DNA of 32,817 nucleotides. Source: DHVE2 group archaeon (GTDB lineage Archaea; Thermoplasmatota; Thermoplasmata; Thermoplasmatales; Aciduliprofundaceae). The position numbers were made by a program, and so were the translations under genes. Below are positions 5,261-21,865 of this stretch, one piece after another. The stretch is taken from NCBI GenBank assembly GCA_015521465.1, contig WAOD01000006.1:1-32817 (forward strand), in the 5' to 3' direction. The notes under the pieces are model-generated. The model did no database searches, was not told the origin of the DNA, and worked only from the letters and a program-made list of their open reading frames with translations. Position 1 is the first letter of the stretch. Every line of letters starts with the position of its first letter.

Positions 5261-5686
5261 GTGGATGATGAGCTCCGCAGGAGAATAGAGAAAATCGAAG
5301 AGTTGCTTAATAGATACTTTGAAACTGAATACATGAGATACACTCGCAGAATTCTCTCCACTTACTTGCAGCTCATAGATATTTATATAGAGCACGGGAG
5401 GATAAGCCCCTCTGTTATATTTCCCAACGTGAAAGACCCCATATCCAGAGAGATTCTCGAAACTGTTTTTTATTATGGGAAGCTCAACACATCACGCATC
5501 ACTGAAGAGTTAAGAAAAACGAGAGGAAAAGCGTCCAGAAGAATCGTACGTGAAAAGCTGGAGAAGTTAGTGGAGATGGGGCTCATAGAATGTGAAGAAA
5601 AGACGAATGAGAAAATCTACTTTGTTTCGGATTATGCTTTAAAGAAGTGGTTAAAAGTGCTCGGCATCGATATAAAGGGTGATTGA
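5261..5686 (+). CDS. Winged-helix DNA-binding protein, putative regulator
   Basis: A 141 aa soluble, charged protein. Residues 1-30 form a probable coiled helix (DDELRRRIEKIEELLNRYF). Residues 60-125 look like a winged helix-turn-helix: DPISREILETVFYYGKL, a turn, SRITEELRKTRGKASRRIV as recognition region, then EKLVEMGLIECEEK leading into the wing. It begins at GTG 5261, with a TATA-like element (CATACAAAT) centred about 26 nt upstream. It is first of three closely packed genes (to 6339) and divergent from the MFS gene, so it may control itself, the cluster or the carrier. Exact family not recognised. Confidence 0.75.
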   Translation: MDDELRRRIEKIEELLNRYFETEYMRYTRRILSTYLQLIDIYIEHGRISPSVIFPNVKDPISREILETVFYYGKLNTSRITEELRKTRGKASRRIVREKLEKLVEMGLIECEEKTNEKIYFVSDYALKKWLKVLGIDIKGD

Positions 5687-20061: not shown

Positions 20062-20097
20062 AAAAATATTTTTATTTTTAACTATTATTTTTTGTAA
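20062..20097. terminator. A/T-run region between convergent genes
   Basis: T runs on the plus strand (20069-20073, 20075-20079 and 20088-20093) follow the membrane protein gene. They overlap the end of the Lrp-type gene. The T tracts should stop plus-strand transcription. Confidence 0.4.
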
Positions 20098-20974
20098 GTT
20101 TTGTATGAGTATCGCAAAATCCAAGTTTGCAAGAGACATAATTCAAGTATTCCGGATTGAACTTCTCCTCTACAATTATCTCGTAATGAACTTTATTAAC
20201 TCCTTTCATACACACAATGCGCTCCATCGTATAGTCAATTTCCCTTACAAACTGAGCAAAAAACACTCCGTAAACAATCTTGGGTTTCTCAAATATGGAT
20301 GTGCGCCATATGTTGTCCATCTTCTTGATTTTACCTTCAAGGGCAATGTCATCAACCTCTATAAAAAGAGAGAACCACAATATATCCTTGCTGAACGGCC
20401 TATTAACTATGGGATATGCTTTCACAACATCCTCGGAGACAAGTCGCTCCCACCTTTTGGATATCGTTTTTGCGCTTACCCCTATAATTTTAGAAAGCTT
20501 GGAAAAAGGAATTCTTGCGTCATCTCGCATAGCAAGGAGTATTTTCCAGTCTACCATATCTATTTTCTTTTTCCCAGCATTTCTATGATAAAATATATCT
20601 TCAGAATATGAATCCGTGAGTTCCTTGAAAAGCATGAGCTTCTCCCTCAACTCCATCTTATCTGAATACCAGAACTCACCGTAGTACCTGCCTCCCAAAC
20701 ATCCAACAAAATGCATAACACCGGGAATTTTAGATATCCGCTCAAATATGCGCTCTCTCCGCTTTTTAGCATGTATTGATATTACTGCGCTGTTAAGAAC
20801 ATAATCCGAATTTAAAAGAATTGAAAATCCCAACAACTCCCCCCTTTTCATCATAGCATTTATTCTCTTGTCCACGGCCGCACCGGATATGCCAAGATTC
20901 TCAGCTATTCTATAAATGGGCATTCTCCCATCATTCCATAGCAAACGAAGAATTTTTACATCCAAGAGGTCCAT
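20078..20974 (-). CDS. Double Lrp/AsnC-type transcription regulator
   Basis: 298 aa with two tandem Lrp-like units. Residues 1-45 (DLLDVKILRLLWNDGRMP, then NLGISGAAVDKRINAM) form a helix-turn-helix, followed by a ligand-type beta domain to about 135. Residues 138-185 repeat the pattern (DMVDWKILLAMRDDARIPFSKL, then IIGVSAKTISKRWERL), followed by a second beta domain to about 280. Single-unit Lrp proteins are about 150 aa, so this is a duplication or fusion in one chain. The effector and targets are unknown. Upstream lies a 169-nt gap shared with the divergent microgene at 21144, a candidate target. Confidence 0.85.
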   Translation of the reverse strand: MDLLDVKILRLLWNDGRMPIYRIAENLGISGAAVDKRINAMMKRGELLGFSILLNSDYVLNSAVISIHAKKRRERIFERISKIPGVMHFVGCLGGRYYGEFWYSDKMELREKLMLFKELTDSYSEDIFYHRNAGKKKIDMVDWKILLAMRDDARIPFSKLSKIIGVSAKTISKRWERLVSEDVVKAYPIVNRPFSKDILWFSLFIEVDDIALEGKIKKMDNIWRTSIFEKPKIVYGVFFAQFVREIDYTMERIVCMKGVNKVHYEIIVEEKFNPEYLNYVSCKLGFCDTHTKLTKNNS

Positions 20975-21087
20975 GATTTACAAATCATATTCAATTACTT
21001 AAGTTTTTCTAACTTTAAAACTTATAGTAGCACAAATGGAAATAAACAGCAATAATATTCCAAAATATTTCCATTTTTTAAACAACA

Positions 21088-21096
21088 TCTTATATA
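21088..21096 (+). promoter_or_regulatory. TATA box upstream of the 20-codon microgene
   Basis: TCTTATATAC-type element centred about 52 nt before ATG 21144. It predicts a leader of roughly 27 nt that includes the GGAGGTGA ribosome site. Confidence 0.4.
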
Positions 21097-21129
21097 CTTG
21101 GTGATAATAATGGAAATTAGAAAGCACCT

Positions 21130-21137
21130 GGAGGTGA
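21130..21137 (+). promoter_or_regulatory. Perfect ribosome binding site of the microgene
   Basis: GGAGGTGA lies 6 nt before ATG 21144. It is one of the strongest ribosome sites in the window and is the main reason for calling the microgene. Confidence 0.55.
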
Positions 21138-21143
21138 TGCAAC

Positions 21144-21206
21144 ATGATAGAAATTATGCTAATGATAGCAAAAAGTAAGGCTGAGGAGTACAGAAGGAAG
21201 AGGTAA
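21144..21206 (+). CDS. Candidate 20-residue microprotein
   Basis: ATG 21144 to TAA 21206 encodes MIEIMLMIAKSKAEEYRRKR: a hydrophobic start and a strongly basic, helical end, amphipathic overall. A TATA box and a perfect GGAGGTGA at ideal spacing precede it, and no other gene explains these signals. A second short frame, 21110-21178 (22 codons, start after GGTGAT), overlaps it in another frame. It may be a leader or simply chance. The microgene ends 9 nt before the convergent nth gene ends. It could be a small membrane-surface peptide or a regulatory leader. Needs conservation evidence. Confidence 0.45.
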   Translation: MIEIMLMIAKSKAEEYRRKR

Positions 21207-21214
21207 AAGCATAA

Positions 21215-21865
21215 TCAGGATGACCCCACCAATCCTTTCTTTTTATTTTTATAGTAATCGCAGTAATCTTTTACGGGACACTCATCGCATTTTGGAGATA
21301 CCGGTTTGCAAATGGTGCGTCCAAACATGACAAGAAGGGTGTTTATTTCAAGCCAGTATTTTTTAGGCAAAAGTTCCATTAACTTTTTCTCAGTCTCTTC
21401 TGGCTTTGAAGTCTTCACCCATCCAAGCCTGTTTGCAATTCTATGCACATGGACATCTACAGCAATGGCCATCTTCCCATAACCACGAGACAGAACTATG
21501 TTTGCAGTTTTTCTACCTACTCCGGGAAGTTTTAGCAATTCCTCTAAACTGTCAGGCACCCTGCCACCGTACTCTTCATCAATTATTCTTGCAACCTCCT
21601 TTATTTTTCCTGCCTTTTGTCTATAAAAACCAGCAGGATATATTAACATAGCAATTTCCTCAACATCAGCATTTTTTAAATCACCCGGGCGGGGATACTT
21701 CGCAAATAATCTGTTTGCAACGGTGTATGTAACCTCATCCTTTGTTCTCTGGGAAATTATTGTGGCAATTAGTATATGAAAAGGGTTCTTGGATTTGTAA
21801 GGGTGCTCTGGAACAACACCTTTCAAAATCTCAATGGTTTTAACAATATCTTCAGCACTGCGCAT
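21215..21865 (-). CDS. nth: Endonuclease III (DNA glycosylase/AP lyase)
   Basis: 216 aa, standard length. It removes oxidised pyrimidines and nicks at abasic sites in base excision repair. The helix-hairpin-helix LPGVGRKTANIVLS holds catalytic Lys119, and VDVHVHRIANRLGW holds Asp137. The [4Fe-4S] loop has Cys186, Cys193, Cys196 and Cys202 in the canonical C-x6-C-x2-C-x5-C spacing. It is divergent from the DUF6015-like gene; the start codons are 105 nt apart. ATG 21865 follows GAGGTGA at 6 nt. The terminal KNKKKGLVGSS is short and basic. Confidence 0.97.
   Translation of the reverse strand: MRSAEDIVKTIEILKGVVPEHPYKSKNPFHILIATIISQRTKDEVTYTVANRLFAKYPRPGDLKNADVEEIAMLIYPAGFYRQKAGKIKEVARIIDEEYGGRVPDSLEELLKLPGVGRKTANIVLSRGYGKMAIAVDVHVHRIANRLGWVKTSKPEETEKKLMELLPKKYWLEINTLLVMFGRTICKPVSPKCDECPVKDYCDYYKNKKKGLVGSS

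Follow-up and report, generated by a model that had tools for sequence, protein, structure and literature searches.

The stretch of DNA analysed here (the window; 32,817 nucleotides) belongs to the 1.5-Mb genome of a DHVE2-group, Aciduliprofundum-like member of the Thermoplasmatota, whose closest named relatives, traced through an Lrp protein that it encodes, are DHVE2-group MAGs, and carries on its forward strand, at positions 21144–21206, an open reading frame of only 20 codons that we refer to as the microgene. Its ATG (21144), its TAA stop (21204–21206) and its product, MIEIMLMIAKSKAEEYRRKR, can be read directly from the sequence. Five nucleotides 5' of the ATG lies a nine-base Shine–Dalgarno (SD) sequence, GGAGGTGAT (21130–21138, forward strand), which matches the archaeal anti-SD, situated at the 3' end of the 16S rRNA, and further upstream is a TATA box, TTATATA (21090–21096, forward strand), which would place the start of the microgene transcript at about 21117–21121.

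Both neighbouring genes lie on the reverse strand. Divergent from the microgene is a gene for a fused double Lrp/AsnC-type regulator (20078–20974; hereafter double Lrp), a single chain with two helix–turn–helix (HTH) and two RAM-like modules, and between the two starts lies a putative divergent control region of 169 bp that is common to both genes (20975–21143). Convergent with the microgene is nth, encoding endonuclease III (21215–21865), whose score of 205.9 bits is slightly below the 211.7-bit cut-off of the NCBIfam model TIGR01083. The TATA box, the perfect SD and the position between double Lrp and nth, all claimed in the first-pass annotation, are thus seen in the sequence itself.

Distribution and coding of the microgene

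We found 18 copies of the microgene in 17 genomes, namely in 16 of the 18 genomes of the home family and in one genome (G021) of a second family (f5). Within the home family the profile matches range from E 1e-11 to 5e-6, with one copy per genome except in G017, which has two. The latter genome holds two diverged Lrp–microgene–nth regions on separate contigs (L025, L049) and is probably a mixed bin (4% contamination). The two family genomes that appear to lack the microgene (G005, 70% complete; G014, 85% complete) also lack an nth match and a strong double-Lrp match, and because these genes are missing too and the genomes are incomplete, the locus is probably unassembled in both. Every DHVE2-group genome whose assembly covers the locus keeps the microgene. 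The copy in G021 is an SD-led frame, MMEVLYIGKIRMLEMLKRRRTK, found by looking divergent from its double Lrp; its score of 5.5e-7 was obtained after this frame had been added to the profile and is therefore not an independent value.

Beyond these genomes the microgene appears to be restricted. The peptide profile gave no match outside the home family at E below 0.04 among 117 genomes of the order, a profile search revealed no convincing microgene elsewhere among 400 genomes of the class, and the home genome contains no convincing paralogue (next match, E 0.2). Where inspected, weak matches outside the two families (E 0.01–1) turned out to be pieces of other frames or to have no SD-led short ORF, and in family f6 no microORF next to nth resembles the microgene peptide.

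All 18 copies share a GAGGTGAT SD, an ATG, 20–23 sense codons without internal stops and a conserved stop codon, and they differ in length by whole codons only. The coding test used a 17-codon core from 17 copies, against which sequences were simulated along a fitted tree without coding constraint. The mean pairwise BLOSUM62 score of the microgene was 2.58, compared with 0.68 ± 0.26 in the simulations (maximum 1.51), and the observed score was reached in none of 1000 simulations, three of which were stop-free; these margins are approximate, as base frequencies and kappa were rounded, the window sequence served as root and the core was positioned manually, using the [AG]K motif. Third positions account for 47% of the observed differences versus 34% of the simulated ones, and the remaining five frames scored 0.29–1.77, with stops in every one. 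In pairwise tests, amino-acid similarity was significant in all 11 pairs (BLOSUM P 0.01 or lower), and a plain count of amino-acid changes was not significant in four of them. The pair G017b/G015, for example, differs at eight nucleotides but encodes identical amino acids, and G009/G012 has 10 nucleotide and two amino-acid changes. Alignment of the relatives hence revealed what the first-pass annotation had expected of a coding gene, namely conserved amino acids with synonymous changes, while the frameshifts and stop codons that it had named as counterevidence occur in no copy. We conclude that 21144–21206 is almost certainly a genuine protein-coding gene. It is difficult to demonstrate that a gene of 20 codons is real; here the comparison of two families provides clear support for a gene that has apparently been overlooked until now.

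A second, overlapping frame of 22 codons (21110–21178), shifted by two bases relative to the microgene frame, had been pointed out as well. It exists in the window but is not conserved: many relatives have stops in it, and there is neither a conserved ATG nor protein conservation. In addition, its first codon precedes the point at which transcription is expected to start, judging by the position of the TATA box.

The GAGGTGAT element stands at -12 or -13 in 18 of 18 copies, and the pattern GGAGGTGATN{2,6}ATG occurs once in the window versus 0.01 times expected from shuffles. A TATA column, TTTAAATA/TTATATA, is common to the 15 aligned family genomes, and G016 and G021 have TATA-like stretches at different positions. 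The 3' end of the unit, with a probable terminator, lies at 21207–21260 (forward strand), where a short gap between the convergent stops is followed by a pyrimidine/U-rich tract in the 3' end of nth. Most relatives likewise have a U-rich tract 3' of the microgene, G010 has a hairpin followed by a T run and G021 has a GC hairpin, and in these two genomes nth is not adjacent. Such sequences suggest that transcription may end directly after the microgene ORF. A terminator hairpin shared by all copies was considered and rejected, the z-scores being weak, also in the window itself.

The microprotein is 20–23 residues long, with a hydrophobic N-terminal and a basic C-terminal half. Within the home family its net charge is +3 to +5 and most members have an acidic residue at position 3, and the alignment shows an invariant lysine after the central [AG]. 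The peptide had been described as amphipathic and basic. Basic it is; as for amphipathicity, its helical hydrophobic moment (0.11–0.31) is never significantly above that of shuffled sequences. Searches with the peptide gave no match in Pfam or NCBIfam and no significant match among the solved chains of the PDB.

Linkage to the double Lrp

Fifteen family genomes have a divergent double Lrp whose start is 165–172 bp upstream of the microgene. The arrangement recurs in G021, in the other family, where the double Lrp is 45% identical and the microgene 156 bp away, so that all 16 genomes with a double Lrp carry the microgene head-to-head. Among the 400 class genomes, the double Lrp occurs in 14, from two families, and all 14 also hold the microgene, a co-occurrence that, within two related families, is confounded by shared ancestry; no convincing double Lrp was found elsewhere among those 400, and G021 gave the only strong match outside the home family. 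Adjacency to the regulator is not absolute, given that G016 (75% complete) has a serpin gene in the Lrp position and retains the microgene and nth. As for nth, it is convergent to the microgene wherever the two are adjacent in the family, lies on another contig in G010 and was not seen beside the microgene in G021; the module does not require it, and its adjacency is dispensable. The link to Lrp is older than that to nth, because every genome with a double Lrp, including one of another family, has the microgene alongside. The microgene survives without either neighbour, Lrp or nth. The stand-alone, SD-led, single-copy microgene and the fused double Lrp form a conserved divergent two-gene module, near-strict in its linkage. 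Synteny and co-occurrence support the link with the divergent Lrp that the first-pass annotation had suspected.

We assume that the double Lrp is a DNA-binding regulator, although its fold also resembles that of an enzyme. The window protein contains the AsnC-type HTH twice, both above the Pfam cut-off, with no RAM match listed by Pfam, and its AlphaFold model (pLDDT 91.7; 13 sequences) predicts that a single chain contains the HTH plus RAM-like module twice, each time complete. A Foldseek search with this model returned the fused siroheme decarboxylase NirDL as the closest fold in the PDB, followed by many Lrp/AsnC regulators. On the one hand, the neighbour therefore shares the double Lrp-like fold of NirDL and AhbA–AhbB; on the other hand, it scores far below the cut-offs for siroheme decarboxylases (AhbA, 18.7 of 140 bits; AhbB, 13.9 of 125 bits), while its HTH domains score well as AsnC-type. 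Because the sequence scores are so far below the curated cut-offs, a regulator is likelier than a siroheme decarboxylase. A dyad-symmetry test revealed no significant palindromic operator in the intergenic region, and self-complementarity that initially hinted at a palindromic Lrp operator was not consistently above shuffles.

A candidate regulatory pair and its alternatives

Taken as a whole, the locus is in our judgement probably best explained as a translated microprotein gene in a divergent module with the double Lrp, regulated from the intergenic region between them, and the two genes are probably a small regulatory pair. Autoregulation is found in most Lrp regulators of archaea, and targets in divergent orientation have also been described (PMC2995911). 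By analogy with these regulators (PMC2995911), the double Lrp would bind the short intergenic region common to both genes and control its own gene as well as the microgene, the microprotein being its dedicated output; we lean slightly towards such control of the microgene. The microprotein, in turn, would most likely bind a larger partner, possibly the double Lrp itself, via its invariant lysine and basic tail. A further step, which we put forward as distinctly unlikely, is that the microprotein feeds back on the pseudo-dimeric double Lrp, such that the regulator would drive the microgene and the peptide would bind back and alter the regulator's activity. If so, a peptide encoded by its own gene would take the place of the usual amino-acid effector of Lrp. 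If the pairing is functional, it would be an example of a transcription factor whose partner, or dedicated local target, is only 20 residues long. The microgene, whose partner is a lineage-specific fused Lrp, offers a concrete test case, and its group includes cultured members.

Small proteins are already known from archaea as a kind, and smORFs have been catalogued (GMSC; PMC11364881); what appears to be new here is this particular peptide, which has an unusual partner in the double Lrp. A literature search for DHVE2 together with small open reading frames returned nothing. The zinc-finger micro-proteins of Haloferax (PMC10716476), which are archaeal and under 70 amino acids, are likewise very short and independently encoded, but the microgene peptide has neither cysteines nor a zinc motif, is 20–23 amino acids long and lineage-restricted, and has a fixed divergent Lrp partner. 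Closer in size is sORF_154 of sRNA154 in Methanosarcina mazei (PMC11456600), also a clade-conserved archaeal peptide of 20 amino acids tied to regulation. However, sORF_154 is translated from a regulatory sRNA and is leaderless, whereas the microgene is preceded by a perfect SD and shows no indication of acting as an RNA. Finally, archaeal regulators of the Lrp/AsnC type that autoregulate or have divergent targets (PMC2995911) resemble the module in having an Lrp-type gene head-to-head with another across a short common control region; here, by contrast, the Lrp is a fused double protein, its partner is a 20-codon gene and the regulation is presumptive.

Rather than being an output of the double Lrp, the microprotein could have a constitutive house-keeping role, perhaps as a small basic peptide associated with the ribosome or another complex, with the Lrp position being inherited synteny of no regulatory meaning. 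The perfect SD and strong TATA box suggest high expression, the tail of the peptide is basic, and the gene is kept in all family genomes holding the locus and even in G016 without an adjacent Lrp. Nevertheless we consider this fairly unlikely: unlike core ribosomal parts, the microgene was not detected in the remainder of the class, the peptide has no match among solved chains, and it is the Lrp linkage, not the nth adjacency, that persists in the second family.

It is very improbable that the locus encodes instead a small non-coding or dual-function RNA in which sequence constraint mimics an ORF. Conserved flanks might be expected of such an RNA, and there are two, a 5' UTR block (GGAAATTAGAAAGCACC in the window) and an ATCACG(A/C)TGAC block after the stop, but the latter consists at least partly of C-terminal codons of nth. 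Moreover, the constraint follows codons and the indels are whole-codon, the predicted structures of the copies have no common fold, and Rfam has nothing near threshold (best match at chance level, E 0.39). A C/D-box RNA was rejected since G000, G001 and G006, inspected by eye, do not conserve the CTGA that would serve as D box 3' of the stop. The ATCACG(A/C)TGAC block itself lies directly 3' of the microgene stop in most family genomes (window 21207–21230; relatives L022–L036). In some genomes it encodes the C-terminal residues of the nth product (GSA or GSS), and in others it lies between the two stops, and in view of the latter, nth coding leaves part of its conservation unexplained.

Just as doubtful as an RNA is a toxin-like or membrane-active peptide held in check by the Lrp gene. 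A hydrophobic N-terminal half, a basic C-terminal half and a linked regulator gene are what one might look for in such a peptide, and a membrane-active role had been proposed for it. Yet its hydrophobic run, of only some six to eight residues and usually interrupted by an acidic one at position 3, is not long enough to form a transmembrane helix, and it lacks amphipathicity, the helical moment not exceeding that of shuffles. Toxin modules do not typically show the strong purifying selection, the single copy and the vertical inheritance seen here.

Least probable is a leader peptide that would sense an amino acid and control a downstream gene, a leader role having also been entertained in the first-pass annotation. 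The ORF is short, its SD is strong and an Lrp-type regulator is close by, as might suit a leader. Against it, the downstream neighbour, nth, is convergent, the next co-directional gene in G010 lies about 300 bp on, beyond the hairpin and T run and so in its own unit, G021 has no close co-directional gene downstream, and no single amino acid that might be sensed is repeated in a run within the peptide.

Two minor features upstream of the microgene deserve mention. In many family genomes the TATA box is flanked by two possible half-sites, TTTCC and GGAAA, which lie about 75 and about 32 nt, respectively, 5' of the ATG (window 21020–21143); we make no claim for them. In G016 (L037), the frame directly upstream of the microgene ends in EEKKRLKVLGINIKSGDDNY, which resembles the C-terminus KKWLKVLGIDIKGD of the window protein encoded at 5261–5686; it looks like the scar of a rearrangement, which is also the source of a TATA-like stretch.
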